Source: an uncultured Microbacteriaceae bacterium
Lineage (GTDB): Bacteria > Actinomycetota > Actinomycetes > Actinomycetales > Microbacteriaceae
Length of the DNA stretch: 53,393 bases
Direction of reading: 5' to 3'
NCBI GenBank assembly: GCA_937872445.1
Contig: CALMSL010000064.1
Coordinates: 1-53,393 of the forward strand
Shown here: in pieces, positions 6,235 through 34,309 of the stretch
How positions within the stretch are numbered: position 1 is the first letter of the stretch
Layout of the letters: each line of letters begins with the position of its first letter
Notes under the pieces: generated by a model
The model's database searches: none
What the model was told of the DNA's origin: nothing
Seen by the model: the letters and a program-made list of their open reading frames with translations, nothing else
Program-made: the position numbers and the translations under genes

Positions 6235-6307
6235 GGGCGTGTCGTCTCAGAGCGGAGGCCATTTCTGGCCTCCGCGACGACACGCCCCGACGCCGTCCCG
6301 GCGTCGG
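6235..6307 (+). repeat. Two-hairpin dispersed repeat, copy 1
   Basis: Hairpin A is GCGGAGGCCA (6252-6261) pairing with TGGCCTCCGC (6266-6275) around TTTC. Hairpin B is CCGACGCCG (6287-6295) pairing with CGGCGTCGG (6299-6307) around TCC. In this copy hairpin A is also enclosed by a 12-bp outer stem (GGGCGTGTCGTC at 6235-6246 with its complement at 6276-6287). The same order, core GGCCATTTCTGGCC and loops recur at 11063-11122 (inverted) and 34251-34309. It lies between the AbiEi-like gene's 3' end and the S10 leader. Confidence 0.75.
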
Positions 6308-6327
6308 CAAACTCGAGTCACAGTCGG

Positions 6328-6346
6328 TCCGCGACGACACGCCCCG
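6328..6346 (+). repeat. 19-base direct repeat of part of repeat copy 1
   Basis: TCCGCGACGACACGCCCCG occurs here and, identically, at 6271-6289 inside repeat copy 1, with a 57-base period. The duplicated piece covers the right arm end of hairpin A and the linker. This suggests slippage or partial duplication of the element, next to the 3' end of the AbiEi-like gene (stop at 6412). Seen directly in the sequence; meaning unknown. Confidence 0.7.
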
Positions 6347-6411
6347 CGGTCGGCGAGCGATGCCCAGACGGACGAGCGATGTCGCCGCGGCGCTATCCCC
6401 CGTCCGCTTCA

Positions 6412-7353
6412 CTATCGCTCGCGTCGAAGACCTGCAGACACGAGCAATCGCTCAAGTCGATGAACGTCGGATGCGACCGGCCACGTCCAGCGAACCATTC
6501 CACACCCCGTCGCGAGGCGGATGGCATCCTCGCGCAACTTCTCCTCGATGACGACCTCGGCAACCTCCCGACCCTGGAGGTAGCGATTTCGAGTGTACTT
6601 TGCCATTCCGTCGAACTCGCCCAAAAGCGCGCTGTCCTTCCATCCGAAGTCGGTGTGCCAGGTCCGTCCCTCTCGATCGATGACCTCGACCTGCAAATCC
6701 GGCGCGGGAAGTCCCGCTCGAGCGATCTGAACTCGACTAAACGATTCGCCCGCCGACCCGGATCGACCGTCAGCAAACTCGCCAACACGTCGCAGACGTC
6801 GAACGCCCCGCTGGTTCGCCAACTGGTCGGCCGCCTCGATCACGAGTCCATGCTCGACGTGGAGGGCCGGATCGCGGTCCTTGCGATGCCGTGCGATCGC
6901 AAAATCGACCACGGCCACCCCTGTCTCAAATCGCGCGGTCCGCGCCAGATCCACAACCGTGCGGAGAGGCGACGTGACGAACAATCCGTCCCTTTGCACC
7001 ACCTCATCGTCACGGAGCGAGGCGAGGTGGCGGACGACTCGGCGCGTTGAACGCTGCCCCGACGTCGGATTTACCGTGACGTGGATTGCACTCGGCCACA
7101 CACCGACAATCGGGATCCCCCACAACGCGGCGGCGCTCCAGTGCGAAAATACCTGAACCGTGCGAGTCGTCTCCGCGAACGCCCGGACCTGCGCCCGGTA
7201 TTTCTCGTCCGGATCAAGCACGTTCCACTCGCCGGCTTCGAGGAACCGCCCGCGTGCCAGGCGCACCATGATCCCGCGTTCCGCACTACGTCGAAGCGCA
7301 CGATCGTCGCCACCCTCACGCGCGAGGTCTGCAACGCGGATGATGCCATTCAC
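6412..7353 (-). CDS. AbiEi-like winged-helix protein with PD-(D/E)XK-like C-terminus
   Basis: About 313 residues. The N-terminus (IIRVADLAREGGDDRALRRS, then GIMVRLARGRFL) resembles the winged-helix AbiEi antitoxin domain. The segment VFSHWSAAALWGIPIVGVWP is typical of the large actinobacterial family named for it. The C-terminus has TDFGWKDSALLGEFDGMAKY and VVIEEKLREDAIRLATG. This spacing of D, E-x-D and E-x-K suggests a PD-(D/E)XK nuclease-type fold. No AbiEii partner is adjacent, so toxin-antitoxin function is doubtful. I place the start at the GTG 7351-7353; a GTG at 7447-7449 is possible. It stands alone between the str and S10 operons, and its substrate is unknown. Confidence 0.75.
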   Translation of the reverse strand: MNGIIRVADLAREGGDDRALRRSAERGIMVRLARGRFLEAGEWNVLDPDEKYRAQVRAFAETTRTVQVFSHWSAAALWGIPIVGVWPSAIHVTVNPTSGQRSTRRVVRHLASLRDDEVVQRDGLFVTSPLRTVVDLARTARFETGVAVVDFAIARHRKDRDPALHVEHGLVIEAADQLANQRGVRRLRRVGEFADGRSGSAGESFSRVQIARAGLPAPDLQVEVIDREGRTWHTDFGWKDSALLGEFDGMAKYTRNRYLQGREVAEVVIEEKLREDAIRLATGCGMVRWTWPVASDVHRLERLLVSAGLRRER

Positions 7354-7480
7354 GGAGCAAGTGTCGCGTGCTTTGCGCAGGTCCCGAGTCGCTGTAGGTG
7401 CCAGTGGTGTAGTCCGTGCGCCGTTACTGCCTGTGGAGGGCACATACACTTGCCGCCGAGAGATACCCCTCCGGACGAGG

Positions 7481-7500
7481 GATAGTGCCTAGGCACTATC
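7481..7500. promoter_or_regulatory. Perfect 20-bp palindrome, probable operator
   Basis: GATAGTGCCTAGGCACTATC equals its own reverse complement. It lies in the 252-base gap between the tuf terminator and the AbiEi-like gene, 128 bases before the preferred GTG and 32 before the alternative one. A perfect dyad of this size without a spacer is typical of a dimeric repressor site. No regulator gene is adjacent, so the protein that binds it cannot be named. The rest of 7354-7564 shows nothing else convincing. Confidence 0.6.
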
Positions 7501-7564
7501 TGCCATCCGGACCACTATCGGTCGGCGCTCGCTGAGAAAGAAGAACACAGGACAACAAGAAAGA

Positions 7565-7590
7565 GGGGCCGGGCCTTTCGGCCCGACCCC
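7565..7590 (-). terminator. Rho-independent terminator of the str operon
   Basis: Read on the minus strand, GGGGTCGGGCC pairs with GGCCCGGCCCC around GAAA (11 bp with one G-U). It is followed by TCTTTCTTGTT. The stem begins 16 bases after the tuf stop codon. It fits a classic intrinsic terminator well and ends the rpsL-rpsG-fusA-tuf unit. Confidence 0.92.
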
Positions 7591-7605
7591 TCCACGAAGC
7601 AGAAA

Positions 7606-8799
7606 CTACTTGACGACCTTGACGACCTTGCCGGCACCAACGGTACGGCCACCCTCGCGGATGGCGAAGCCGAGTCCCTCTTCCATGGCGATCGGCTGAA
7701 TCAGCTCGACCGTCATCTCCGTGGTGTCACCGGGCATGACCATCTCGGTGCCCTCGGGCAGCGAGATGACGCCGGTGACGTCCGTGGTGCGGAAGTAGAA
7801 CTGCGGACGGTAGTTCGCGTAGAACGGGTTGTGACGGCCACCCTCATCCTTCGACAGGATGTAGGCGGTTCCCTCGAACACCGTGTGCGGCGTGACCGAG
7901 CCCGGCTTGACGACAACCTGGCCGCGCTCGACATCCTCGCGCTTGGTGCCGCGAAGCAGCAGACCACAGTTCTCGCCTGCCCACGCCTCGTCGAGCTGCT
8001 TGTGGAACATCTCGATCCCCGTGACGATCGTCTTCTGCGTCGGGCGGATGCCGACGATTTCGACGTCCGAGTTGATCTTCAGGGTTCCACGCTCGGCGCG
8101 GCCGGTAACAACCGTTCCACGGCCGGTGATCGTGAAGACGTCCTCGATCGGCATGAGGAACGGCTTGTCCTTGTCGCGCACCGGGTCCGGCACGGAGTCG
8201 TCGACGGCCTGCATGAGGTCGAGGATGCTCTGCACCCACTTCTCGTCGCCCTCGAGAGCCTTGAGCGCGGAGACCTGGATCACGGGGGCGTTGTCGCCGT
8301 CGAAGCCCTGGCTGGAGAGCAACTCGCGGACCTCAAGCTCCACGAGCTCCATGATCTCGGCGTCGTCCACCATGTCGGACTTGTTGAGCGCGACGAGCAG
8401 GTACGGAACACCGACCTGCTTGGCGAGCAGCACGTGCTCGCGCGTCTGCGCCATCGGGCCGTCGGTGGCGGCGACCACGAGGATCGCACCGTCCATCTGA
8501 GCGGCACCGGTGATCATGTTCTTGATGTAGTCGGCGTGCCCTGGGGCGTCAACGTGCGCGTAGTGGCGCTTCGGGGTCTCGTACTCGACGTGCGAGATGT
8601 TGATCGTGATGCCGCGCTGACGCTCTTCAGGTGCCGAGTCGATCGACGCGAAATCGCGCGATACGTTGACGGCTGAAGGGTACTTGTCAGCAAGCACCTT
8701 GGAGATCGCTGCGGTGAGCGTGGTCTTTCCGTGGTCAACGTGTCCGATCGTTCCGATGTTGACGTGCGGCTTAGTCCGCTCGAACTTGGCCTTAGCCAC
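7606..8799 (-). CDS. tuf: Elongation factor Tu
   Basis: EF-Tu delivers aminoacyl-tRNA to the ribosome as a GTP complex in the cytoplasm. The 397-residue product has [10 protein letters not shown] (G1, near residue 20), [20 protein letters not shown] (G3), [12 protein letters not shown] (G4) and VSALKAL (G5). EF-Tu domains 2 and 3 follow, ending [20 protein letters not shown]. The start is GTG at 8797-8799 with GAGGAGG upstream. It is last in the str operon, 104 bases after fusA. That gap has a short hairpin (GGGCGCAAACCCGCGTCC) and could hold a separate tuf promoter, though I cannot define one. Confidence 0.98.
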
Positions 8800-8903
8800 T
8801 GTGGTCCTCCTCAGGACTTCTCAGGTTGGAACACTGGACGCGGGTTTGCGCCCAGGGCACCTACGGGATGTTGTCTTATGTTACGGGATACTGCGTTCGG
8901 GCG

Positions 8904-11018
8904 TTACTCGCCCTTGTTCTTCTGGATAATCTCGTCGGCAACCGCGCGCGGCACCTCGGAGTAGCTGTCGAAGCCCATCGAATACACGGCGCGGCCCGAG
9001 GTCTTCGACCTCAGGTCGCCCACGTATCCGAACATCTCCGACAGCGGCACGAGCGCCCGGATGACCTTCACACCGGTGGCATCCTCCATGGACTGGATTT
9101 GGCCACGCCGTGAGTTCAGGTCGCCGATGACGTCCCCCATGTATTCCTCCGGGGTGCGCACCTCGACGGCCATGAGCGGCTCGAGCAGTACGGGGTTCGC
9201 CTTGCGGGCGGCCTCCTTGAAGGCCATCGATCCGGCGATCTTGAACGCCATCTCCGAAGAGTCGACGTCGTGGGCTGCGCCATCCAGAAGGATGGCTTTC
9301 ACACCCACCATGGGGTAGCCGGCGAGCACGCCGACCTGCATGGCGTCCTTCATTCCGGCGTCCACCGAAGGAATGTATTCGCGAGGAACACGCCCACCGG
9401 TGACCTTGTTCTCGAACTCGTACGTGTTCTCCGAGGAGAGCTCGAGGGGTTCGAGAGAGATCTGCACCTTCGCGAACTGGCCCGACCCACCCGTCTGCTT
9501 CTTGTGGGTGTAGTCGTGTTTGTCGACAACGCGCTTGATGGTTTCGCGGTACGCGACCTGCGGCTTGCCGACGTTCGCCTCGACGTTGAATTCCCGCTTC
9601 ATGCGGTCCACCAAAATGTCGAGGTGCAACTCGCCCATGCCCTTGATGACGGTCTGCCCGGTGTCGATGTTTTGTTCGGTGCGGAACGTCGGGTCTTCCT
9701 CGGCGAGCTTTTGGATCGCAAGACCCAGCTTTTCCTGGTCGGCCTTCGTCTTCGGCTCGATCGCCACCTCGATGACCGGCTCGGGGAACGTCATCGACTC
9801 GAGGACGATTTGCGCGTTCGGGTCGCACAGGGTGTCGCCGGTCGTGGTGTCCTTGAGCCCGATGACCGCGTAAATGTGCCCCGCGGTGACCGAGGGGACC
9901 GGGATCTCCTTGTTGGCGTGCATCTGGAAGATCTTTCCGATGCGCTCCTTCTTCTGCTTCGTCGAGTTGGCGACCTGGCCGCCGCTGTCGAGATGCCCGG
10001 AGTACACCCGGATGTAGGTGAGTCGCCCGAAGAACGGGTGCACGGCCACTTTGAACGCGAGGGCCGCGAACGGGTCCTTCGGGTCGGGGTGCCGCTCGAT
10101 GATGACCGACTCGTCGCGCGGGTCGAAGCCTTCGACCGCCGGAACATCCAGCGGGTTCGGCAGGTAGTCGATGACGGCATCCAGCATGGGCTGCACGCCG
10201 CGGTTCTTGAACGCCGAACCGCACAGCACCGGATACATGGTGCTCGAGATCGTGAGCTTGCGGATGCCCGACTTGATCTCGGCAACCGTCAGCTCTTCAC
10301 CGGCGAAGTACTTCTCCAGCAGCGCGTCATCCGTTTCCGCGACCGCTTCAAGGAGGTGCTGGCGGTACTCGGCCGCTTTCTCCTTGAGGTTCTCCGGGAT
10401 CTCCTGAACGTCGTACTTCGCCCCCATGGTGACGTCGCCCTTGGAGTCCGCTTCCCACACGAGGGCGCGCATCTCGACCAGGTCGACAACTCCGAGGAAG
10501 TCGTTCTCCGCTCCGATGGGCAACTGGATGACCAGCGGCTTCGCGCCAAGGCGCTTCACGATGGTGTCCACCGTGAAGTAGAAGTCCGCGCCGAGCTTGT
10601 CCATCTTGTTGACGAAGCAAATGCGCGGCACGTCGTACTTGTCGGCCTGGCGCCAGACCGTCTCGGACTGGGGCTCAACACCCTCCTTGCCGTCGAACAC
10701 GGCGACCGCGCCGTCGAGCACGCGCAAGCTCCGCTCCACCTCGACCGTGAAGTCGACGTGGCCGGGGGTATCGATGATGTTGATCTGGTTCTTGTTCCAG
10801 AAGCAGGTGACGGCGGCGGAGGTGATCGTGATGCCCCGCTCCTGCTCCTGCTCCATCCAGTCCGTCGTTGACGCACCATCGTGCGTCTCGCCGATCTTGT
10901 GGTTGACGCCCGTGTAGAACAGGATGCGCTCGGTCGTTGTCGTCTTACCGGCATCGATGTGCGCCATGATCCCAATGTTTCGGACCTTGCTCAGGTCGGT
11001 GAGCGCTTCCTGTACCAC
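8904..11018 (-). CDS. fusA: Elongation factor G
   Basis: EF-G drives translocation and ribosome recycling. The 704-residue product shows G1 [17 protein letters not shown], the switch I segment [18 protein letters not shown]3 [20 protein letters not shown] and G4 [11 protein letters not shown]. Domains II-V follow, including [20 protein letters not shown] and the C-terminal [12 protein letters not shown]-type segment, seen here as [20 protein letters not shown]. Length fits the family. It lies between rpsG and tuf; repeat copy 2 occupies the rpsG-fusA gap. Confidence 0.98.
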
Positions 11019-11062
11019 TGTGATTCCTTACGTTTGAGTGTGAAAAGTTACAATGCGAACAG

Positions 11063-11122
11063 CCGAAGCCCGAGACGGGCTTCGGAGCTGGCGTCGCGGC
11101 GACGGCCAGAAATGGCCTTCGC
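11063..11122 (-). repeat. Two-hairpin dispersed repeat, copy 2 (inverted)
   Basis: Read on the minus strand, hairpin A is GCGAAGGCCA-TTTC-TGGCCGTCGC (11099-11122, one mismatch). The linker CGCGACGCCAGCT follows, and then hairpin B CCGAAGCCCG-TCT-CGGGCTTCGG (11063-11085, 10 perfect pairs). It fills much of the rpsG-fusA intergenic gap (11019-11136), so it must be transcribed within the str operon mRNA. Linker and core match copy 3, while the hairpin B arms are different yet fully paired. Confidence 0.75.
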
Positions 11123-11136
11123 TCATAGCTCCAGCG

Positions 11137-11607
11137 CTACCACCTGTAGTGAGCGAAGGCGCGGTTCGACTCAGCCATCTTGTGGGTGTCCTCGCGGCGC
11201 TTCACCGCGGCACCGAGACCGTTGGATGCATCGAGGATCTCGTTGGTGAGGCGCTCGGTCATGGTCTTCTCGCGGCGAGCCTTCGCGTAGGTCGTGAGCC
11301 AGCGAAGCGCCAGGGTGTTCGCACGGTGCGGCTTCACTTCGACGGGGACCTGATACGTCGAGCCACCAACTCGACGGCTCTTCACCTCGATTGTCGGCCG
11401 GACGTTGTCGAGAGCCTTCTTCAGGGTCACAACGGCATCCGCGCCGTTCTTCGAGGAGACGCCGGCGAGGGCGTCATACACGATCTTCTCGGCGAGACCC
11501 TTCTTGCCGTCGAGCAGGATCTTGTTCACGAGCTGGCTGACGATGGGAGCTCCATAGACCGGGTCGGCCACAACGGGGCGCTTCGGTGCTGGTCCTTTAC
11601 GAGGCAT
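11137..11607 (-). CDS. rpsG: 30S ribosomal protein S7
   Basis: S7 nucleates assembly of the small-subunit head. The 156-residue product opens [20 protein letters not shown]. It has [40 protein letters not shown] and NAFAH-type ending [10 protein letters not shown]. This matches the 156-residue bacterial S7. It overlaps rpsL by one base (TAATG). Confidence 0.98.
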
Positions 11608-11981
11608 TACTTCTTGTCCTTCTTTGCGCCGTAGCGGCTGCGGGCCTGCTGACGGTTCTTCACGGCCTGGGTATCGAGCGCACCGCGCACGATCTTGTAG
11701 CGCACACCGGGGAGGTCCTTAACACGTCCGCCGCGCACGAGCACCATCGAGTGCTCCTGAAGGTTGTGGCCTTCGCCCGGGATGTAGGCGGTCACCTCTG
11801 TGCCGTTGCTGAGCTTGACGCGAGCAACCTTGCGCAGAGCCGAGTTCGGCTTCTTCGGGGTGGTCGTGTACACGCGGGTGCACACACCGCGCTGTTGGGG
11901 GTTGGCCTTCAGGGCAGGCGTCTTGGTCTTGGCGACCTTCGGATTGCGACCCTTTCGGACCAACTGCTGAATGGTTGGCAC
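11607..11981 (-). CDS. rpsL: 30S ribosomal protein S12
   Basis: S12 sits at the decoding centre. The start is a GTG at 11979-11981, with AAGGAG eight bases upstream. It gives the standard [13 protein letters not shown]-terminus and exactly 124 residues; an earlier in-frame GTG is not needed. [17 protein letters not shown] and [20 protein letters not shown] are intact, including the lysines whose change gives streptomycin resistance in other bacteria. From this alone the strain would be predicted streptomycin-sensitive at rpsL. It is first in the str operon. Confidence 0.97.
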
Positions 11982-12238
11982 TGATGTAACTCCTTGAATT
12001 GACTGCACGGTGACAGTTGGTACTTATTTTTCACTCCGCACAATGAAAAACGCTGTGCGAGTGACGTGACCCACCGCGGGACATATAGTCCCTGGCTTCA
12101 TTGGTGGGTATGCCGTGGGGGCGCTGGGGCGGCGGTAAAACCGTCCCGGTCGAGCCCAATTCGTAGCTGGTGCCTCAGTGCTCGCCCTCCCGCGATTTTG
12201 GGCACAGGACAACGTGCGGCAAAGCGCACACCTAGAAA
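11982..12238 (-). promoter_or_regulatory. Untranslated leader of the str operon
   Basis: About 250 bases lie between the predicted transcription start near 12232 and the rpsL GTG. A 62-codon open frame at 12024-12212 has no homology-like features or ribosome-binding site and is not called. Short GC-rich dyads occur (for example around 12140-12155), but no single dominant hairpin stands out. Long leaders are common before actinobacterial str operons. Confidence 0.5.
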
Positions 12239-12267
12239 AGAATAGTCCCTCACCCCGCCACGGTCAA
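12239..12267 (-). promoter_or_regulatory. Sigma-A-type promoter of rpsL
   Basis: On the minus strand, TTGACC (12262-12267) and TATTCT (12239-12244) are separated by exactly 17 bases, close to the housekeeping consensus TTGACA/TATAAT. It lies between the 3' end of the upstream membrane-protein gene (12278) and rpsL. This indicates that the str operon is transcribed independently of the pilus operon upstream. Confidence 0.82.
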
Positions 12268-12277
12268 ATGGCTCCCC

Positions 12278-12757
12278 TCACCTGGCACGCGACCGCGACA
12301 GGTCGATGACCGGCAAAAGCAGAATGACCAGACCGGCGAGAGCGGCAGAAGCGATCACGAACGGGCTTGCCAGATACTTCCCGAAGAATTCGACGGCGGT
12401 GAGAATCCGATCCTGGCCGAAAACATAGACGATCGCACCGGTGAGCGGGCTCACAACGTACACGATCAGCGTTGTGGCACTAGCGCGTCCCACCGGGATC
12501 CGGCGCGGCCCCGGTGCAGGACGCAACCCGCCCAGCACGGAAACGAACACGACGGAGAGTGCCGCCACCGCCATCACCGGACCAACCAGAGGTCCGGCAT
12601 CCCGTTCCGAAATGACGTCGCGATCGATGAGCAGGCTCACGAAACCGTCCACGGCCATCAGGATCGCACCGTAGAGCACGGCCACCATCACTGCGATCAG
12701 CAGCGCCCGCGAAAACGAGCGGGGGCGGACCGGATCAGACGGCGGCGACTCCGCCAA
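12278..12757 (-). CDS. Four-helix membrane protein, DUF6121-like
   Basis: About 159 residues from a TTG at 12755-12757 (GGAAGAG lies upstream). The frame is open further upstream but would overlap the preceding gene heavily. Four hydrophobic segments are visible: ALLIAVMVAVLYGAILMAV, LVGPVMAVAALSVVFVSVLG, TLIVYVVSPLTGAIVYVFG and FVIASAALAGLVILLLPVI. It resembles the small uncharacterised DUF6121 membrane family of Microbacteriaceae; this is from memory and unverified. It overlaps the preceding gene by 23 bases, so it is probably the last gene of the pilus operon. No function is assigned. Confidence 0.65.
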   Translation of the reverse strand: MAESPPSDPVRPRSFSRALLIAVMVAVLYGAILMAVDGFVSLLIDRDVISERDAGPLVGPVMAVAALSVVFVSVLGGLRPAPGPRRIPVGRASATTLIVYVVSPLTGAIVYVFGQDRILTAVEFFGKYLASPFVIASAALAGLVILLLPVIDLSRSRAR

Positions 12758-13571
12758 ACTCTGCTCTCTTCCGTGCCTCTTCGTTCTCAAACGCCTGCCA
12801 GGCCTCAAAGTTGCGTTCGCGGACGCGGCGGCCACGCCGGGCGATCGCGGCTCCGAACCAGATCGACGTCTCCCTGGCGAGGAGCCCCGCAGCAATCAGC
12901 GCAGGGTTGAGCGCGAACAACACGAAGTCATGCGTTGCCTCGCGCGCCGTGAGCCCGAACCCGCCTGCCATCAGCAACAGTGCCCCGATGGACGCGAAAT
13001 AGGTAATGGCCGCGATGATGAGGGACCCAATGACCCAGGCCCACCAGCTGGCGCGATTCACGAGAAGAGCCCACAGGATCATGAGCACGAGGAAGGCGAT
13101 CACGGGGATGTAGAAGAGCGGCCCGACGAGGAACTTCACCAGCGCATCCGGCACGACGGGCGGATTCACGAAGATGATGAGCAGCGCAGCAACTCCCGCA
13201 TACACCGCCGCGAAGACGACGGCCGCGGCGAATGCCAGCAGCGTCCCGATTCCTCGATTTCCTTTACGCTTTGGCGGTGTCGGTGCTGTGACATACACCG
13301 TCTGCACCGGGGCGGGAGCGATCTCGCCCGTCTGGGCGGGGGCGGCGGTTTCTGCGACCGGTTCCTCTCCTGCGACAGGGGCGACGGTTTCTGCGGCCGG
13401 CTCCTCGCCTGCGTCGGCAGCGCCGGAGTCCTCGGCCGGCGACTCAGCGACGGCCTCATCTGCAGCATCGTCCTGGGCGGCGACGTTTTCCTCGGCGACC
13501 TCGACGGCAGCCGCGTCCTGAGCATCATCCTCCGGCTTCTTGTCGTCCGGCGTTGCTTTGTTGGCGTTCAT
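12735..13571 (-). CDS. Hypothetical membrane protein with acidic repetitive N-terminus
   Basis: About 278 residues from the ATG at 13569-13571, which has GGAGGT just upstream. Residues 1-95 are Ala/Glu/Asp/Pro-rich and repetitive (ETVAPVAGEEPVAETAAPA), probably a disordered cytoplasmic region. Four hydrophobic segments follow (GTLLAFAAAVVFAAVYAGVA, LFYIPVIAFLVLMILWALLV, WVIGSLIIAAITYFASIGAL, VLFALNPALIAAGLLA), then a basic tail RRGRRVRERNFEAWQAF. I do not recognise the family. It begins 82 bases after pilO ends, on the same strand, so it may be cotranscribed with the pilus genes. Confidence 0.75.
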   Translation of the reverse strand: MNANKATPDDKKPEDDAQDAAAVEVAEENVAAQDDAADEAVAESPAEDSGAADAGEEPAAETVAPVAGEEPVAETAAPAQTGEIAPAPVQTVYVTAPTPPKRKGNRGIGTLLAFAAAVVFAAVYAGVAALLIIFVNPPVVPDALVKFLVGPLFYIPVIAFLVLMILWALLVNRASWWAWVIGSLIIAAITYFASIGALLLMAGGFGLTAREATHDFVLFALNPALIAAGLLARETSIWFGAAIARRGRRVRERNFEAWQAFENEEARKRAEFGGVAAV

Positions 13572-13653
13572 CCGTACCTCCACATGCGGGACCCCGTGGC
13601 CCGGCTAGGGTCACTCTAGCAATGGATGCTGGGCTGGCGACAGATGGAAGCCG

Positions 13654-14316
13654 CTAGGGGGACGGACTCGGGGTCGGTTTCGTATCGAGTGATCCGACCG
13701 GTGTCGGCGTGGGCGGCGGTGCCGACGGGTCAACAAGCACGTAGACGTAGCCGGTTATGGAGCCGGTATAGCCGGCGGGCGCACCATTCTTGTCCGTGGC
13801 GGTCTGATCCTGCGCGACCGTGAGCTTGGTCACGAGGAAAAGCCGATGGCCGTACTGCAGGTCGCTGACGAAATTCATCACTTGCTCCTGCGTACCGGCG
13901 ACCGTCAGGTCGATGGTGATCGCCACGAAGTTGTCCGCCGTGATCGCCGGGTTGACCGTCGCGGCCGGAGCCGCAATATACCGCTGCCCGTCACTCGCCG
14001 CGAACTTCGTCAGCGAGACGCCGCTTGCCGCCTCGAGCTGATGGAGCTGCCCGAGGAACGTGGAGAGCTCATCCCCGGGCGGAAGGCCCAGTTGCGCGTC
14101 GGCGAGGTCGGCCTTCAGCTTGTCCAGGTTCTGAAACTGCTTCTTGAGTTCCGCAAGTTTGACTTCGTGGAGTTGGTTCTGATGTTCGACGCTCGCCCGC
14201 TGATCATTTGCCGCAGCCATTTCGTCGAGTTTGGGCGACACTCCCAAAAACCAGCCCATGGCGAGGATGACAACGCCGAGGACACCGGCAATGAGCAACC
14301 AGAATTTGTTGTTCAT
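13654..14316 (-). CDS. pilO: Type IV pilus assembly protein PilO-like
   Basis: PilO pairs with PilN in the inner alignment complex that links the cytoplasmic PilM ring to the pilus base. The 220-residue product has a short cytoplasmic N-terminus, one membrane segment (FWLLIAGVLGVVILAMGWFL) and a coiled-coil stretch (residues 30-70, KLAELKKQFQNLDKLKADLA). A small domain with VSLTKFAASDGQRYI follows, and the Pro/Thr/Ser C-terminus PTPTPVGSLDTKPTPSPSP ends it. I use the ATG at 14314-14316, nine bases after GGGGG. A GTG two codons earlier overlaps the pilN stop and is the alternative. Sequence identity within this family is low, so the call leans on context. Confidence 0.82.
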   Translation of the reverse strand: MNNKFWLLIAGVLGVVILAMGWFLGVSPKLDEMAAANDQRASVEHQNQLHEVKLAELKKQFQNLDKLKADLADAQLGLPPGDELSTFLGQLHQLEAASGVSLTKFAASDGQRYIAAPAATVNPAITADNFVAITIDLTVAGTQEQVMNFVSDLQYGHRLFLVTKLTVAQDQTATDKNGAPAGYTGSITGYVYVLVDPSAPPPTPTPVGSLDTKPTPSPSP

Positions 14317-14318
14317 GT

Positions 14319-15110
14319 TCACTTACCCCCGTTTGAACTGGCTGACGGACTCGGGCTCGGCGATGGCGTGGCGGGTGCGGCCGCTGCCTGTTCCTTGGCC
14401 TTGAGTGCGGCGTCCTGGTCCGCCCTGGACTTGTCGCGCTCGGCGAGGGCGACCTTGTCGAATCGATCCAGGAGGGCATCCCGGTTGATGTGCATGGTGA
14501 TCGTCACCTCATAGAGTGCCGTGTCTTTGTTGAGAGTGAGCGACCCGGGGGATGCGTCGACATACCCATAGAGCTTCGACAGGCCGTCAAGCCATTTCTC
14601 GACATCCGGAAGCGACTGGGATGTTGCCGTGAATTTGAGTTCACCGATCCGATTGCCCTGCAGCGGAACCTGGGGCTGATCGAAAGCGGCGAGAGGGGTG
14701 GCCGTCTCTGCCACGACGTTCGTGATGAGTGTGCCGGCGGGGAGGCTGCCCTGGATGTCGCTCAGGTACGCCTTCCAGTCGATTTCGGTCGACATCCCCA
14801 CCTGGCGAGCGGCCGTTGCGGTCGTCAGCAGGTTCGTCACCTGTTTGACCTCGGAGTACTTGCCCTGCTCCGCGATGAGTTCCTGGGTGCGCTTGTTGGC
14901 GGCGTCGAGCTCATTCTGCGCGCCGAGCGCGAAAATTGTGGCGCCGGCGTATGCGGCGATGACGAGGAGCACGGCGAGAACGAGAAGCGCGATGGCATTG
15001 CGCCGCACGATCCTGCCCTGCGCGGCTGCCCCCACCTCGGGCGGAAGCAGGTTGGCGCGTGCGGGTCCGCCAATGATGAGCTTGCCGCCGGTGTCGGTAT
15101 CGCGACTCAT
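14319..15110 (-). CDS. pilN: Type IV pilus assembly protein PilN-like
   Basis: PilN binds PilM through a short cytoplasmic motif and pairs with PilO. The 263-residue product carries the expected motif near residue 20 (ANLLPPEV, matching the family's I-N-L-L-P). One membrane segment (AIALLVLAVLLVIAAYAGAT) and a coiled-coil with KRTQELIAEQGKYSEVKQV follow, and then the fimbrial-assembly domain (STEIDWKAYLSDIQGSLPAG). The C-terminus is Ala/Pro/Ser-rich and low complexity. It overlaps pilM by four bases (ATGA). Confidence 0.9.
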   Translation of the reverse strand: MSRDTDTGGKLIIGGPARANLLPPEVGAAAQGRIVRRNAIALLVLAVLLVIAAYAGATIFALGAQNELDAANKRTQELIAEQGKYSEVKQVTNLLTTATAARQVGMSTEIDWKAYLSDIQGSLPAGTLITNVVAETATPLAAFDQPQVPLQGNRIGELKFTATSQSLPDVEKWLDGLSKLYGYVDASPGSLTLNKDTALYEVTITMHINRDALLDRFDKVALAERDKSRADQDAALKAKEQAAAAPATPSPSPSPSASSNGGK

Positions 15111-16153
15111 GCTGCTGCACCCCCCAAAGCCAGCCCAAGTGCCACATTCATTCCGAGTTGGCTCTGCGTGCCTCTCGACGCGTCGCGCGCCACCTCGATG
15201 CTTCCGAACGTGTCGCCGAGCACAACCGGGATGCGGGTCATTTCCGACAGGGCGTCCGCGAACCCGAGAAGCTGAGCCCCGCCGCCGGTGAGGACGATGC
15301 CCGAATACGGTTCGTTCTGCCGCGTGTTAGCAAAGAAGCTGAGCGTGTTCTTGAGGCTCGTGAGAAGGTTTCCGGTCACCTCGCGAATGATCGCGATCGT
15401 CGGCGCCTGCTCGGGCGGCACCGTCACGCCACCCAGACCGAGGGAACGCTTGGTTTGTTCGGCATCGGCCTCGGAAATGTTCAGCCGGTCGATGAGCGCC
15501 GTCGTCAAGTCGTGGCCGCCGTTGGCGATGATCCGTACGAACTGCGGAATGCCGCCGCTCGTCACGATCACGTTCGTGGTGCGGGCACCGATGTCGATGT
15601 GGGCCACATTTCCGATCATGCGGGACGGCGAGGTGAGCCTCGTGAGTGCGAACGGAATGAGGTCGACGCCCACAGGGACAAGCCCGGCCAATTGAACTGC
15701 CTTCACGTTGGCCAGCACGGAATCCTTGATCGCCGCGACGAGCAGGCCGTTGACGATCGGCCCGCCCTCGGTCGCGCTCTCCGAAATCGGGTAGAAGTCG
15801 AGGAGGGCGTCAGCCACCGGGACCGGAAGCATCTCCTGCACGTGGGTGGGAAGGGATTCGCGGATCTCCTGCTGGCTGAGCTTCGGGACCGAAAGGTCGC
15901 GAACCAGAACCTTCGCGTTTCCCACGCCGAGAATGACCTCTTTGCTCCCGAACTTTGCGGCGTTCCAGAGTTGCCGAAGCGCTGCGGCGACGGTGTTGAC
16001 CTCGAGGACCTCACCGTTTTTGACTGCGCCCTCCGGCAGAGCAAGCGAGAAGAACCGTGCGACGGATGGGCGCTTCGAACCGACGCCGGTCACCTCCACC
16101 GCCCTGATGCTTCCGGAGCCGATATCCACTCCGACAAGTTGCGTGCTGGCCAT
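15107..16153 (-). CDS. pilM: Type IV pilus actin-like protein PilM
   Basis: PilM is an actin/FtsA-fold cytoplasmic ATPase-like protein that forms the ring under the pilus motor. The 348-residue product has the phosphate-1 loop LVGVDIGSGSIRAVEVTGVG at residues 5-24, and QEIRESLPTHVQEMLPVPVA. Phosphate-2 HIDIGARTTNVIVTSGGIPQ and adenosine motif GIVLTGGGAQLLGFADALSE follow. The start is the ATG at 16151-16153, with AGGGGA four bases upstream. It is cotranscribed with the prepilin peptidase and pilN. Confidence 0.93.
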   Translation of the reverse strand: MASTQLVGVDIGSGSIRAVEVTGVGSKRPSVARFFSLALPEGAVKNGEVLEVNTVAAALRQLWNAAKFGSKEVILGVGNAKVLVRDLSVPKLSQQEIRESLPTHVQEMLPVPVADALLDFYPISESATEGGPIVNGLLVAAIKDSVLANVKAVQLAGLVPVGVDLIPFALTRLTSPSRMIGNVAHIDIGARTTNVIVTSGGIPQFVRIIANGGHDLTTALIDRLNISEADAEQTKRSLGLGGVTVPPEQAPTIAIIREVTGNLLTSLKNTLSFFANTRQNEPYSGIVLTGGGAQLLGFADALSEMTRIPVVLGDTFGSIEVARDASRGTQSQLGMNVALGLALGGAAA

Positions 16154-16161
16154 CACATCCC

Positions 16162-18692: not shown

Positions 18693-18694
18693 GG

Positions 18695-20766: not shown

Positions 20767-20892
20767 GCTTCCCCCTGGGTGTTGATTGTCGAACAGTGGA
20801 ACTACGACACCTTCGGGTGGCCGGTATCGGAGTTAACTGCTGCTGATGGGGTGCCACACCGGGTGGCACCCCATCAGGCCGTTAGTGCAGCC

Positions 20893-21324: not shown

Positions 21325-21496
21325 TTTACTTTTCCTGTCTTGTAGTAAGGAACATGGACAGGGCCCCCAATTGACCCCCCTCAAACATGCTGGCCCCGGT
21401 TCCCGCCGTATGTAATCCCGCAAAGGGGGCACATCCGGCATTTCCACGCCCCCAGTGGTGGGGGCAACGGAGCCCGATATTCAGTTGTGGATGGAA
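21325..21496 (-). promoter_or_regulatory. Structured pilC-pilA intergenic leader
   Basis: On the minus strand, two hairpins follow pilC. The first (21448-21465) is GCCCCC pairing with GGGGGC. The second (21405-21439) is a nine-position stem, GCCGGATGT with ACATACGGC and one mismatch, that encloses a smaller CCC/GGG hairpin. A G-rich run (GGGGGG near 21370-21380) follows before the pilA ribosome-binding site. There is no U-tract, so this is not a simple terminator. It could be a 5' leader or mRNA-processing element that lets pilin be made in excess. I do not recognise a known riboswitch. Confidence 0.5.
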
Positions 21497-22729: not shown

Positions 22730-22730
22730 G

Positions 22731-24410: not shown

Positions 24411-24444
24411 CAGGTTCCCCCTCAGGACCTTGTGGACCGAAAAA

Positions 24445-26115
24445 TCAGGCCACCACTCGCAAAATCTCTTCGACCGATGTGAGCCCCATTTGTGCCTTCA
24501 TCCAGCCGTCCAACCGCAGCGGGATCATCCCCTGCGAACGTGCAGTGCGGGCGATTTCCGCTGCGGACGCCCTCTCCACCGCCAGGCGCTCGATCTCTTC
24601 CGTCACGAGCATCACCTCGTGCACCGCAATGCGGCCGCGGTAACCGGTCCCCGAGCAGGTTTGGCAGCCCACGGGCTGAAACAGTGTGGGGATCGGCTGG
24701 CTCGGCTCGAACCCCACCCGCAGGTTTGCCAGATCGTTCGGATTGGGCTGGTACGCCCCCTTGCACCGATCGCACAGTCGACGGGCGAGCCGCTGAGCGA
24801 CCACGCAGTCCAGTGCGGAACCGACCAGGAACGGTTCGATGTCCATTTCCGTGAGGCGCGTCACGGCGCTTGGCGCATCATTCGTGTGCAGCGTCGACAG
24901 CACGAGGTGCCCGGTGAGTGCGGCCTCGATCGCGATTTGCGCAGTCTCCTGGTCGCGGATCTCACCGATCAGCACGACATCGGGGTCGGACCGCAGGATG
25001 CTGCGCAGCGCGCTCGCGAACGTGAGGCCCGCCTTCGGGTTGACCTGGACCTGATTGATTCCCGGCATCCGATATTCGACCGGGTCCTCGACCGTGATCA
25101 CGTTGATCTCCGGCTTCGCCACTGCGTGCAGGGTCGTGTACAGGGTCGTGGACTTACCCGAACCGGTCGGCCCCGTCACGAGGATCATCCCGTACGGTTT
25201 CGTGAACGACGAACGGAACGCGCTCATGTTCTCGTCAAGCATCGCGAGGTCGCCCAGCGACATGGTCGACTCTGCGTTGTCGAGAATACGCATGACGACT
25301 TTCTCTCCCCACACGGTGGGAAGGGTCGCGACGCGCAGGTCGATCTTGCGTCCGCCATGGCTGACCGACATGCGGCCGTCCTGGGGCTTGCGGCGCTCGG
25401 CGATGTCGATATCGCTCATGATCTTGAGGCGCGAAATCACGCCGTTCTGGATGGTCTTCGGGGCCTGCTGCATCTCGTGCAGAACGCCATCGATGCGGTA
25501 CCGAACATTGAGTTGCCGTTCGGCGGGCTCGATGTGGATGTCCGAGGCGCGGTCCTGAATCGCCTGGCTGATGAGCAAATTGACGAAGCGCACGATGGGC
25601 GCGTCATCCTGCTGCGGCTCCTGCGTGCCGACCAGCGCGAGATCGGTGCCGGCATTCTCCTCTTCGAGCTCCGTGGTGAGGTCGCTGAGTTCGCCATCCG
25701 CCCGGTGGAAACGGTCGATCGCACTGATCAGGTCGCTGCGCTCGGCAACGACGAGATGGATCTGCAGGCGGGTTGCCGCGCGAACGTCGTCAATCGCGAA
25801 GACGTTGCCGGGGTCGACCATGGCGAGTGTTAGGGAGTCCTCACTCATGGCGATCGGCAAGACCTCGTGACGGCGACACAGCGAGGCCGCAACCTGAGAC
25901 ACTGCAGTGCGATCGACCGGGTATTCCAGCAGCTCCACGAACGGCAGGCCCGCAAGGGCCGCACGCGCGGATGCCACCTGAGCTTCAGTGAGTACTCCCT
26001 GATCGATCAGGGCGCGGACAGAGTTCTCTTCCTCTCCCCACCCACCGGAAACGGTGTCGAGACTCTCGATCGGCATTACGCCACGAAGAATCAGAATCTC
26101 GGTCAATGAAGCCAC
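24445..26115 (-). CDS. pilB: Pilus extension ATPase PilB
   Basis: PilB powers pilus extension at the cytoplasmic face. The 556-residue product has an N-terminal domain of the T2SSE/MshEN type (residues 1-150, with RALIDQGVLTEAQVASARAA and LPIAMSEDSLTLAMVDPGNV). Some members of this domain class bind cyclic di-GMP. The motor follows: Walker A VTGPTGSGKSTTLYTTLHAV, Asp box VEDPVEYRMPGINQVQV, Walker B DVVLIGEIRDQETAQI and His box VLSTLHTNDAPSAVTRL. A tetracysteine zinc site CDRCKGAY with CQTCSGTGYRGR distinguishes PilB from PilT. The start is GTG with GGGGGAAG upstream. It is first in the pilus operon. Confidence 0.95.
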   Translation of the reverse strand: MASLTEILILRGVMPIESLDTVSGGWGEEENSVRALIDQGVLTEAQVASARAALAGLPFVELLEYPVDRTAVSQVAASLCRRHEVLPIAMSEDSLTLAMVDPGNVFAIDDVRAATRLQIHLVVAERSDLISAIDRFHRADGELSDLTTELEEENAGTDLALVGTQEPQQDDAPIVRFVNLLISQAIQDRASDIHIEPAERQLNVRYRIDGVLHEMQQAPKTIQNGVISRLKIMSDIDIAERRKPQDGRMSVSHGGRKIDLRVATLPTVWGEKVVMRILDNAESTMSLGDLAMLDENMSAFRSSFTKPYGMILVTGPTGSGKSTTLYTTLHAVAKPEINVITVEDPVEYRMPGINQVQVNPKAGLTFASALRSILRSDPDVVLIGEIRDQETAQIAIEAALTGHLVLSTLHTNDAPSAVTRLTEMDIEPFLVGSALDCVVAQRLARRLCDRCKGAYQPNPNDLANLRVGFEPSQPIPTLFQPVGCQTCSGTGYRGRIAVHEVMLVTEEIERLAVERASAAEIARTARSQGMIPLRLDGWMKAQMGLTSVEEILRVVA

Positions 26116-26407
26116 GGAACTTCCCCCTAAAGTTGTTCCCCCAGCGGCGCACCCCTCGATTCGGGTTGAGCGAAGAAACCGCGCCGAGAGGCAAATCTAA
26201 CTCGCGCGTGTCATTGCACGCCATACCCGCTATCGGGGGGTATACGGCGCCGGGATCTCGCTGAAGGCCGCGTCAGCCCCCAAGGGTCTCGACCATGACG
26301 CGGCTTGTTCTTCGCGCTGGCGAACGTTCGGGGTCATGAGGGACAACGGCCGTCATGGTTGGGGCAGGCCGTCACCGACGGGGCGTCGTCGCGGAAGTAC
26401 CGGTTGA
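26116..26407 (-). promoter_or_regulatory. rpoC-pilB intergenic region, probable pilus operon promoter
   Basis: No gene is supportable here. An inverted pair ACCATGACG (26292-26300) and CGTCATGGT (26351-26359) could form a stem over a 50-base loop. A second imperfect dyad (TACCCGCTATCGGGGGGTA, near 26224-26242) lies about 110 bases before the pilB start. AGTTAGATT near 26193-26201 on the minus strand is a possible -10 region, but no convincing -35 fits. The pilus operon promoter is expected here because no other upstream gap exists. Confidence 0.45.
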
Positions 26408-26537
26408 GCTGGGAGCGTGACGCAGGGATAGTCAATCCTCCGCTCAATCATTGAGAGCCTGGTCCGGACCGCAAGGATCCAGCCCAGGCTCTCAAAACTC
26501 GCTCGCAGATCAACTATCCCTGCGTCACGCTCCCAGC
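26408..26537. repeat. Nested palindrome directly after rpoC (25-bp outer arms)
   Basis: The outer arms 26408-26432 and 26513-26537 are perfect reverse complements over 25 bases; the left arm starts GCTGGGAGCGTG and ends AGGGATAGT. Inside them, 26451-26462 (TTGAGAGCCTGG) pairs perfectly with 26484-26495, and the central 21 bases hold TCCGGA and GGATCC. The outer arm begins two bases after the rpoC stop codon. There is no U-tract after either arm, so it is not a standard intrinsic terminator. It could be a terminator or mRNA-stabilising fold, or a MITE-like insertion; no target-site duplication is visible. Confidence 0.8.
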
Positions 26538-26539
26538 GC

Positions 26540-30436
<3,897 letters not shown>

Positions 30437-30485
30437 TGTTTCTCCTAATGCCTAAATCTGGATTGAGTCGTTGATGGGCCGTGAA

Positions 30486-33400
30486 CTAGATCTCGTCGAT
30501 GGACGAGTTCTCGAACCGGGCGGAAATGTTGATTCCGAGCTCTTCCGCTGCGCGGAACACCTCGTCATCCGTGTCCTTGAGGCTGACCGCCTGGCCGTCC
30601 GAGGACAGCACCTCGACGTTCAGGCACAGCGACTGCATCTCTTTGATGAGCACCTTGAAGCTCTCGGGAATGCCGGGCTCCTGGATGTTCTCGCCCTTGA
30701 CGATCGCCTCGTACACCTTCACGCGGCCGAGGATGTCGTCCGACTTGATCGTGAGAAGCTCCTGCAGCGCGTACGCGGCACCGTATGCCTCGAGCGCCCA
30801 CACTTCCATCTCACCGAAGCGCTGGCCGCCGAACTGGGCCTTGCCGCCCAGGGGCTGCTGCGTGATCATCGAGTACGGTCCCGTCGAGCGTGCGTGGATC
30901 TTGTCGTCGACAAGGTGGTGCAGCTTCAGGATGTACATGTAGCCGACCGAGACCGGCTCCGGGAACGGCTCGCCGCTCCGACCGTCGAACAGCCGGGTCT
31001 TGCCGGTGGAGTCGATCAACCGGTCGCCGTCGCGGGTCTTCGTGGTCGAGTTGAGGAGTCCCTCGATCTCGGCCTCTGCCGCACCGTCGAACACGGGGGT
31101 CGCCACCTTCGTCCCTGGCGCAGCCTTGAGGGCGTTGTCCGGAATCGTCGCAGCCCACTTCGGCTTGCCTTCGACTTCCCAGCCCTGCTTGGCCACCCAG
31201 CCGAGGTGAGTCTCCAGCACCTGGCCGAAGTTCATGCGGCCGGGGATGCCGAGCGGGTTCAGGATGATGTCGACGGGCGTCCCATCCGCGAGGAACGGCA
31301 TGTCCTCGACGGGCAGGATCTTCGAGATGACGCCCTTGTTGCCGTGACGGCCGGCAAGTTTGTCACCCTCGGTGATCTTCCGCTTCTGCGCGATGAACAC
31401 GACCACGCGCTGGTTGACGCCGGAGCCGAGCTCGTCGTCGCCATCCGTCGCGTCGAACACCTTGACGCCGATGATCGTTCCCGCTTCGCCGTGCGGAACC
31501 TTGAGGCTCGTGTCACGAACCTCGCGGCTCTTCTCGTTGAAGATCGCGCGCAGCAGTCGCTCTTCGGCGGAGAGCTCCGTCTCGCCCTTCGGCGTGACCT
31601 TGCCGACGAGGATGTCGCCGGGGTTCACTTCGGCGCCGATGCGGATGATCCCGCGCTCGTCGAGGTCGGCAAGCAGTTCGGGGCTCACATTGGGGAGGTC
31701 ACGGGTGATCTCCTCCTTGCCGAGCTTCGTGTCGCGGGCATCGACCTCGTACTCCTCGATGTGAATCGAGGAGAGCACGTCGTCCTTCACCAGGTTTTGG
31801 CTGAGGATGATCGCGTCTTCGAAGTTGTGACCCTCCCACGGCATGAACGCGACCAGCAGGTTCTTGCCGAGCGCAAGCTCGCCGTTCTCGGTCGCCGGGC
31901 CGTCGGCGATGACCTCGCCGGCCTCAACCCGGTCGCCCTCGTTGACGATCACGCGGTGGTTGTAGCTCGTGCCCTGGTTGGAGCGGTCGAACTTGCGCAG
32001 GTAGTAGTCCTGCGTTCCGCCGGCGTCCAGCTGGATGGTGACGACATCCGCCGACACTTCGGAGACCACTCCGGCGGCGTCCGCCGTGAGCACGTCTCCC
32101 GCGTCGATGGCGGCATATCCCTCCATACCGGTTCCGACGAGCGGGCTTTCGCTCATGAGCAGCGGAACAGCCTGACGCTGCATGTTCGCGCCCATGAGGG
32201 CCCGGTTCGCGTCGTCGTGCTCGAGGAACGGGATGAGCGAGGTCGCCACCGACACCATCTGGCGCGGCGACACATCCATGTAGCCGATCTCCTCGACGGG
32301 GAACAGGTCGACCTCTCCGCCCTTGGAGCGGGCAAGAACCCGGTCCTCGGCGAAGTGCGAGTCGCCCGTGAGCGGCGCGTTGGCCTGAGCCACCACGAAC
32401 TCGTCTTCCTCGCTCGCGGTGAGGTAGTCGATCGTGTCCGTGACCTTGCCCTTGACGACGCGGCGGTACGGGGTCTCGATGAATCCGAACGAGTTGATGC
32501 GGGCGAAGGACGCGAGCGAACCGATCAGGCCGATGTTGGGGCCTTCCGGGGTTTCGATCGGGCACATGCGGCCGTAGTGCGACGGGTGAACGTCGCGCAC
32601 CTCGACGCCGGCGCGCTCGCGGCTCAGACCGCCAGGGCCGAGCGCGGAGAGGCGGCGCTTGTGGGTGAGCCCGGCAAGCGGGTTGTTCTGGTCCATGAAC
32701 TGCGACAGCTGGGAGGTTCCGAAGAACTCCTTGATCGCCGCGACGACCGGACGCACGTTGATGAGCGTCTGCGGCGTGATTGCCTCGATGTCCTGAGTCG
32801 TCATCCGCTCGCGAACGACGCGCTCCATGCGGGAAAGGCCGGTGCGCACCTGGTTCTGGATGAGCTCGCCGACGGCGCGGATCCGGCGGTTGCCGAAGTG
32901 GTCGATGTCGTCGATGTCGAGGCGGATGTCCACCTTCTTGCCGTTGCGGGTGCCCGGAATCGTCTTCTGCTCTTCGTGCAGAGCGACGAGGTACTTGATC
33001 GTCGCGATGATGTCTTCCTGGCTGAGCACCGAGTTCGCCAGAGGGGCTTCAATCCCGAGCTTGCGGTTGATCTTGTAACGACCGACCTTCGCGAGATCGT
33101 AACGCTTCGAGTTGAAGTAGAAGTTGTCCAGGAGCGCGCGCGCTGCCTCGGCGGCAACCTGCTCGCCCGGGCGCAGCTTGCGGTAGATGTCCTTGAGCGC
33201 CTCCTCCTTGGTGAGGATGGCATCCTTCTCCAGGGTGGCCTCGATGGAGGCGTAGCCCTTGAACGTTTCGAGGATTTCCTCGCTCGTCATGCCGAGCGCC
33301 TTCAGGAACACCGTCACCGACTGCTTGCGCTTGCGGTCGATGCGCACGCCGACCTGGTCGCGCTTGTCGATCTCGAACTCGAGCCAGGCGCCGCGGCTCG

Positions 33401-33992
33401 GGATGATGCGGGCAGAGTAGATGTCCTTGTCGGAGGTCTTCTCCTGCGCGCGGTCGAAGTACACACCGGGCGACCGAACGAGCTGCGACACGACGACGCG
33501 CTCCGTGCCGTTGATCACGAACGTGCCCTTTGGCGTCATGAGCGGGAAGTCGCCCATGAACACGGTCTGAGTCTTGATTTCACCGGTGAGGTGGTTCATG
33601 AACTCGGCCTCGACGTAGAGCGGAGCGGAGTAGGTCTTCCCCTTCTCCTTGCACTCGTCGATCGAGTACTTCTTCTCCTCAAGGAACGGGTTCGTGAACG
33701 AGAGCTGCATCGTCTCGCCGAGGTCCTCGATGGGGGAGATCTCTTCGAAGATCTCCTCGAGTCCGGTGAGGGACGGAAGGTCCTGGCGCCCGGCAGCTTT
33801 CGCTTCCGCCGCACGCTCCTTCCACAGGTCGTTGCCCACAAGCCAGTCGAAGCTCTCGGTCTGCAGTGCAAGCAGATCGGGAACCGTCAGTGTGTCTGTG
33901 ATCTTCGCGAACGAGAGACGCTCAGCGGAGCGACCGTTCTTGAGGGGCTTCTTGGATGAATTCGAGGTGGATGCGTTGCGCGCAGCAGCCAA
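30486..33992 (-). CDS. rpoB: DNA-directed RNA polymerase subunit beta
   Basis: The 1168-residue product has [20 protein letters not shown] followed by [18 protein letters not shown]. This is the rifampicin-binding cluster with the wild-type Asp, His and Ser of the resistance hot spots, so rifampicin sensitivity is predicted. Other landmarks are [40 protein letters not shown] and [20 protein letters not shown]. The N-terminus ([20 protein letters not shown]) is a short actinobacterial extension. The ATG has CCGGAGG upstream. It is first in the rpoBC operon. Confidence 0.98.
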
Positions 33993-34063
33993 GGAAATAA
34001 CCTCCGGCGGCCCTTTTCAGGCCAGTTACAGTCGGTGATATGTGGGCAAACGACTCACCAGTA

Positions 34064-34098
34064 CCCCCGGGCCGTAACCCATGGAGTAGTGCCGGGGG
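34064..34098 (-). promoter_or_regulatory. Hairpin in the rpoB leader
   Basis: CCCCCGGGC (34064-34072) pairs with GCCGGGGG (34091-34098), with one bulged base and an 18-base loop. It sits about 70 bases before the rpoB ATG and inside the predicted 170-base leader. No U-tract follows, so it is a pause or stability element at most. The remainder of 33993-34168 shows no gene. Confidence 0.5.
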
Positions 34099-34168
34099 AC
34101 TGAGCTGTCCTGGCACGCGCGGCCGACCGCAATATGAAGGCAGAGAACATCTGGGAGCGCAAGGATCA

Positions 34169-34197
34169 ACTATAGGACGAATCCGGCGACGTGTCCA
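34169..34197 (-). promoter_or_regulatory. Sigma-A-type promoter of rpoBC
   Basis: On the minus strand, TGGACA (34192-34197) and TATAGT (34169-34174) are spaced by exactly 17 bases, one mismatch each from consensus. Transcription would start near 34162, giving a leader of about 170 bases before rpoB. It lies in the 327-base gap between rpoB and the ureohydrolase gene. Confidence 0.85.
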
Positions 34198-34250
34198 CTT
34201 AAATCTTGACCGAATCTGAAATCTGCGCTATAAGCGCGCTGGAGCATGAA

Positions 34251-34309
34251 GCGAAGGCCATTTCTGGCCTTCGCGCGACGCCAGCGCCGGCGGCCGTCTC
34301 GGCCGCCGG
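34251..34309 (+). repeat. Two-hairpin dispersed repeat, copy 3
   Basis: Hairpin A is GCGAAGGCCA-TTTC-TGGCCTTCGC (34251-34274, ten perfect pairs). The linker GCGACGCCAGCG follows, and then hairpin B CCGGCGGCCG-TCT-CGGCCGCCGG (34287-34309, ten perfect pairs). It ends ten bases from the stop codon of the ureohydrolase gene, so it also could act as that gene's 3' stem-loop. Compared with copy 1, hairpin A differs by an A-to-G change matched by T-to-C on the other arm. Confidence 0.78.

Follow-up and report, generated by a model that had tools for sequence, protein, structure and literature searches.

The described systems closest to the element reported here are palindromic repeats of bacterial genomes and the hairpins found at actinobacterial transcript ends. 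REP/BIME elements, associated with the tyrosine transposase RAYT, are short imperfect palindromes with many intergenic copies per genome and compensatory changes in their arms, and REPs carry a GTAG-type foot. TRIT is reportedly a conserved terminator-like motif of Mycobacterium tuberculosis, described by Gardner et al. in 2011 (RNIE); it is enriched near gene ends, in a species with few classical terminators. The motif is named in passages of PMC3526491. According to passages of PMC8269248, U tracts are missing in Streptomyces clavuligerus from 353 of the 535 3' ends that are highly structured, and hairpin clusters are proposed as terminators in passages of PMC8355165. The element described below resembles REP/BIME in the features listed above and, like REPs, occurs in many dispersed palindromic copies (14 in its own genome and as many as 66 in another of the genus), but it differs in its three helices, its preference for stop codons and the 3' ends of genes and the absence of a Y1_Tnp gene from 8/8 genus genomes; the GTAG-type foot was not seen by eye. 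It would resemble TRIT, as that motif is described, in being a conserved structured motif near gene ends in an actinobacterium, although the host of TRIT belongs to another order of Actinomycetota. With tail-less ('I-shaped') actinobacterial 3' ends it shares very stable GC-rich hairpins, without a U tract and near transcript ends; those, however, are single hairpins of free sequence, whereas the element is a fixed-plan three-helix repeat with conserved loops.

Three copies lie in the window, by which we mean the whole 53,393-nucleotide stretch analyzed. Copy 1 (6235..6307, + strand, 69 bits by covariance model) folds into a helix P1 with arms at 6235-6246 and 6276-6287, hairpin A at 6252-6275 (loop TTTC, 6262-6265) and hairpin B at 6288-6306 (loop TCC, 6296-6298), and is antisense to both of its flanking genes, an S10 gene (5515-5823, -) and a tuf-type gene (7606-8799, -). 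An ORF between these two genes (6412-7353, -) had no Pfam match. Copy 2 (11063..11139, - strand, 90.3 bits; hairpin A 11099-11122, hairpin B 11063-11085, P1 3' arm 11087-11091) occupies the rpsG-fusA spacer in sense orientation to both genes, with the rpsG stop codon at its 5' edge, 19 nt ahead of the core, and one A.G mismatch in hairpin A. Copy 3 (34234..34309, + strand, 97.7 bits), with P1 arms at 34236-34242 and 34281-34287, hairpin A at 34251-34274 (loop TTTC, 34261-34264) and hairpin B at 34288-34308 (loop TCT, 34297-34299), is located between an arginase-family gene (34320-35324, -) and rpoB (-), directly past the arginase-family 3' end. The window contains the exact core GGCCATTTCTGGCC, a 14-mer, three times, and 100 dinucleotide shuffles never produced it; fold z-scores against shuffles were -8.9, -4.1 and -5.8 for copies 1, 2 and 3, respectively. 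A window scan with filters off returned three strong matches, followed by one of 23.7 bits on the reverse strand of copy 3; the bit scores of the window copies are partly so by construction, because copies 1 and 3 (loci L013 and L007) and copy 2 (L011) also belong to the model training set.

The initial annotation had placed three copies at these sites, and all are real (98, 90 and 69 bits by the model). The extent it gave for copy 1 was retained, whereas copies 2 and 3 reach further 5' (11139-11063, -, and 34234-34309, +), because the supposed linker between the hairpins pairs with an upstream arm. This third helix, P1, was missing from the proposed plan of two hairpins and a linker: its 5' arm lies upstream of hairpin A and its 3' arm is the former linker. 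The P1 arms read GGGCGTGTCGTC/GACGACACGCCC in copy 1, GCTGG/CCAGC in copy 2 and GCGCTGG/CCAGCGC in copy 3. The element spans about 75 bases; P1 encloses hairpin A, and hairpin B comes next. In 5' to 3' order, about 5-9 unpaired bases separate the P1 5' arm from hairpin A, which has about 10 pairs and the loop TTTC. A spacer of 0-7 bases leads to the P1 3' arm, and hairpin B starts immediately after it, with about 9-10 pairs and a TCT or TCC loop closed by G-C. The commonest form, present in many genera, is GCGCGCTGGAGC-TNNRA-GCGAAGGCCATTTCTGGCCTTCGC-CGCGACGCCAGCGC-CG...GTCTC...CGG. The hairpin A apex was ATTTCT in 107/116 copies and that of hairpin B GTCTC or GTCCC in 98/116; an apex fitting CGTCNCG was located in 127 of 156 copies, as CGTCTCG in 84, CGTCCCG in 41 and another sequence in 2. 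Hairpin B arms are, as first reported, unrelated between copies yet complementary in each, but the apex they carry is nevertheless conserved. In variants of the type seen at L107, L131, L166 and L208 (GCGCGGTGG...GACCCCAGCGC), a paired C-to-G / G-to-C change shifts P1 to a second pairing register with bulges.

The core had been called invariant, which holds only among the three window copies, since 57 exact cores stand against 139 model matches in the same 8 genus genomes. Non-core stems such as GCGACGGTCA/TGACCGTCGC, GCGAAGGCAA/TTGCCTTCGC and GCGGAGGGCC/GGCCCTCCGC keep their pairing. Of the non-core copies in the genus, 58 are distinct and full-length; their stems were mostly rewritten without loss of pairing, and the loop TTTC was retained in 44/58 and the apex GTC(T/C)C in 45/58. 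These copies come from alignment A3, in which 90 distinct rows were reduced to 83 (25 core, 58 non-core) by dropping 3 fragments and 4 rows from other genera, many G004 copies having been picked because they are without the core. The clearest rebuilt stem belongs to the rpsG-fusA copy of G001, located through its gene and independently of the repeat search, where hairpin A is GAGCGC-TTTC-GCGCTC and both the loop and the hairpin B apex are unchanged. The compensatory nature of the arm changes, also claimed initially, was borne out by two-sided changes in 134 cells, compared with 25.3 in shuffles, and by paired cells at 97.2%, compared with 28-50% in slid versions, both in a 54-row alignment preselected for complementary stems. 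The initial copies were found by their exact core, so that core conservation in sets A1 and A2 is by choice; set A1 was further restricted to copies with 6 or more perfect pairs in each of the P1 and B helices, a filter that 85 of 156 copies passed, and the 54 of these that were aligned served to build the covariance model. With no stem preselection, hairpin B pairs were Watson-Crick in 83-99% of 127 copies, and over 181 distinct copies aligned to the model the figure was 87-99% by helix. Alignments A2 and A3 were fitted to the model and their pair counts lean towards it. Most likely, the stems drift under selection for pairing while both loops are held.

Model searches returned 14 matches in the own genome, where 6 exact cores were found, and 139 matches (E <=0.01) in the 8 genus genomes, 7 of which were positive (14, 12, 1, 20, 66, 17, 0 and 9 matches per genome); the reversed control pattern was absent from all 8. 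Many further copies thus exist, rather than none genome-wide; the initial annotation had named such an outcome of a model search of this genome and of other Microbacteriaceae as support for its reading. In the family, the exact core was present in 51/299 genomes, with 7 single hits for the reversed control pattern, and model matches, reaching E ~1e-19 at full length, in 67/299 genomes and 31/85 genera, up to 16 matches per genome being counted in this survey. Three of 297 genomes drawn from the order were positive, namely the own genome, one more family member and one genome of another family with a single weak match (E 9.5e-4). Among the genomes searched, the many copies were confined to one family. 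A named collection yielded 99 stretches with the 20-mer, and the 80 titles listed mostly name Microbacteriaceae genera or unspecified Actinomycetota. Three off-family titles (L098, L100 and L101) were rejected as hosts, having the 20-mer only and no match to the plan. A fourth, L155, is titled Acidobacteria and carries full copies, but the title is probably wrong because its contig coordinates coincide with those of G073, placed in Microbacteriaceae by GTDB.

No named repeat with this plan had been known to the initial annotation, and neither Rfam nor the open-access literature searched, in which no published description of the element was found, supplied one. Rfam 15 gave no match in the window at gathering score, the best being at copy 3 with E 0.27, far below gathering, and in four other element loci it matched SRP RNA and a tRNA only, leaving the element unmatched. 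ANTAR-target RNAs, whose two hairpins must each have a hexaloop with A1 and G4, were considered and rejected: hairpin A reads ATTTCT, with T at position 4, hairpin B has a triloop, and P1 is extra.

The position of the copies relative to genes was read from calls by a codon-usage caller made for this analysis. Enough flank was available for 135/156 copies, 20 of which lay inside called ORFs, some being chance 14-mer matches or within doubtful ORFs. Of the 109 copies with both neighbours called, 45 sat between convergent genes and 9 between divergent ones, while the tandem copies comprised 32 in sense and 23 in antisense orientation. Gaps with an element were convergent in 34/69 cases, compared with 19/196 other gaps of the same loci (OR 9, p 3e-11), and divergent in 8/69, compared with 62/196 (p 8e-4). 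A stop codon was found 0-30 nt ahead of the core in 51/77 sense copies and 0-20 nt ahead, that is within the element, in 40/77; in several sense copies the element supplies the last residues of the host protein (e.g. ...RALEL, ...TLEL). For antisense copies, 27/68 facing stops were 40-80 nt away on the far side of the core, shortly after hairpin B. This strong tie to gene 3' ends, missed in the initial REP/BIME-like reading, points to a terminator-like or 3'-end role rather than a plain extragenic palindrome. Measured against classical intrinsic terminators, the element has the stable GC-rich hairpin just past the gene but not the U tract: the T share at positions +1 to +4 was 47, 28, 12 and 10%, with no U tract after hairpin B, in the 86 of 156 copies that have a long hairpin B.

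Copies were found 3' of guaA, der and aspartate kinase genes in several genera (names by NCBIfam), and there P1 extends into the coding end. At guaA the P1 5' arms, including the stop codon, read GGAGTGAAAACGC, GGAGTGACCGCGC, GGAATGACCGG and GGAATGAGC, among others, with a 3' arm that matches each. The model detected the element at 5 of 108 guaA ends (one per genome, from 110 genomes searched), 2 of them with the exact core; in a sixth case, L346, a 13-pair P1 was seen by eye without a model match, and the remaining 102 do not show the plan, many having ordinary U-tract hairpins. The rpsG-fusA spacer held the element in 5 of the 7 genus members in which rpsG was found and lacked it in 2, G004 giving no rpsG match. 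Among 24 other rpsG-fusA spacers, those two genus members included, 16 folded at <=-29 kcal/mol (raw energies, no shuffle control), with hairpins that were unrelated and in two cases built from another palindromic repeat. From the rpsG-fusA spacers and the guaA ends it follows that the element takes a site at which other actinobacteria have a strong hairpin of some kind. As a separate observation, most of the actinobacterial rpsG-fusA spacers examined (L241-L269) hold a strong hairpin of unrelated sequence. The shared rpsG-fusA hairpins may be a sign of a common 3'-end or attenuation function within the str operon.

On balance, and with moderate confidence, we favour a dispersed, structured, tail-less and probably two-way terminator or 3'-end element of Microbacteriaceae that spreads like REPs, on account of its position, its two-way symmetry and the niche it shares with strong hairpins; we class it as a dispersed palindromic element with a gene-end role. 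In its RNA form, hairpin A (loop UUUC) would be closed by P1 and followed by hairpin B (apex G-UCU-C or G-UCC-C). Positioned at stop codons or straddling them, and in gaps between convergent genes, such a strong hairpin cluster without a U tract probably ends transcripts in either direction, caps their 3' ends against exonucleases, or does both, and it is gained, lost, tandemly duplicated and nested as a modular unit. The absent U tract is no strong objection, because most structured 3' ends of S. clavuligerus are without one in passages of PMC8269248. Counting against a terminator, besides the missing U tract, are the parity of G.T and A.C cells described below, the 20/135 copies in ORFs and the 9/109 in divergent gaps. 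Copy 2 also counts against it, since full termination within the operon would be harmful; partial attenuation or processing is more likely there than full termination.

The foremost rival, although we consider it unlikely, is a selfish palindrome of REP type: an enzyme that works on single-stranded hairpins would move it, and its place at gene ends would reflect only that insertion is tolerated there. Comparison with G003, a close relative with about 94-99% identity in the flanks of shared copies, speaks for such mobility: 9/14 own copies have a match in G003, while the L233 copy is absent from it (15 bases in place of the 83 of the own genome) and also from G001, and the L009 copy is absent from G003 along with about 400 bases. 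These two presence/absence sites are joined by tandem units of about 64-86 bases, copies in both orientations, and nesting within another palindromic repeat, whose arms flank 7/148 copies, compared with 17/28,725 random places. Spread thus fits the REP likeness first proposed, but RAYT, the one defining feature tested and, if nearby, named as supporting evidence by the initial annotation, was not found: a search for Y1_Tnp (PF01797) was negative in 8/8 genus genomes (87-97% complete) and positive in 5/14 control genomes. Nor was a clean target duplication visible at the L233 empty site, the one site read in detail, where the flanks have diverged. Tolerance alone, moreover, predicts neither a convergent share of 49% among element gaps nor the fitting of stems to the guaA coding end. 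A candidate autonomous transposon, consisting of two Pseudolysinimonas kribbensis copies 2.86 kb apart, was rejected; the two loci are overlapping reads of one pair.

The adapted stems could also be taken further, to a mobile RNA that embraces the stop codon: its loops would be fixed, its closing stem remade to complement the final codons and the stop codon in the gene it marks, possibly via fold-back copying of the gene end, and the same helix would couple the termination of translation and transcription. We regard this proposal as distinctly improbable.

Quite improbable, too, is a regulatory RNA in which the two loops would bind a protein or RNA, either in ANTAR-like antitermination or in a post-transcriptional regulon. 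The loops are better kept than the stems (44/58 and 45/58 in the non-core genus copies), but their conservation may reflect loop stability, the A1/G4 loop rule of ANTAR is not obeyed, the copies are at 3' ends rather than in leaders, and the named neighbours (rpsG, the arginase family, guaA, der and aspartate kinase) form no obvious regulon.

A cruciform or hairpin DNA-site role has been proposed for some BIMEs, and the element might likewise act at the DNA level, offering a nucleoid, gyrase or repair factor a cruciform or a single-stranded hairpin, with arms corrected by mutual copying. Apart from the long near-perfect stems and the two orientations, the equal numbers of G.T and A.C cells (77 and 74), which give no sign of selection on one RNA strand, agree with this idea; such parity would be expected if both strands or the DNA matter, or if drift dominates the counts. 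By context the G.T:A.C counts were small, 10:6 for sense tandem, 8:5 for convergent, 3:2 for divergent and 1:2 for antisense tandem copies. Hairpin B, however, leans in the RNA direction (34 G.T, 22 A.C), although not significantly (p 0.14), and a bias to stop codons and convergent genes is not expected of a DNA site, so we hold this explanation to be very improbable.

That the copies are only generic, unrelated terminators alike by chance is next to impossible and already contradicted, for although GC-rich hairpins are common at gene ends, the core was absent from 100 shuffles, the reversed control gave nothing in 8 genus genomes and 7 single hits in 299 family genomes, full-length model matches reach E ~1e-19, and only 2 of the 24 hairpins of at least 8 perfect pairs in 196 element-free gaps have a TTTC/GAAA loop.

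How transcripts end without U tracts in GC-rich actinobacteria is poorly described. The conserved loops, the freely covarying stems and the naturally occurring copies, some mismatched and others not, adjoining guaA, der, lysC-type aspartate kinase genes and rpsG-fusA, would make U-less termination testable. If the tail-less terminator reading is true, the element would exemplify how terminator-like elements spread and find renewed use in different genera, and the covariance model would let genome annotators mark gene ends.

Some minor observations concern the surroundings of the copies. Beside copy 1, CGCGACGACACGCCCC is directly repeated at 6273-6288 and 6330-6345, and the matching stretch in G003 (L026) holds two hairpin A units, which makes copy number variable here. 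Arrays of two or three units follow aspartate kinase, guaA and der genes (L170, L020/L150, L184 and L032). The second palindromic repeat, GGTCGAGTAG / GGTTGAG / CCCTGAG with TCGAGACC / CTCGAAACC / CTCGAAGGG, brackets some copies at L009, L010, L035, L049, L123, L187 and L195 and also makes the rpsG-fusA hairpin in L249 and L256. At L201 and L211, a partial copy directly upstream of a full copy ends in the hairpin A loop after CATTTCT, as though a copying or joining event had halted there.
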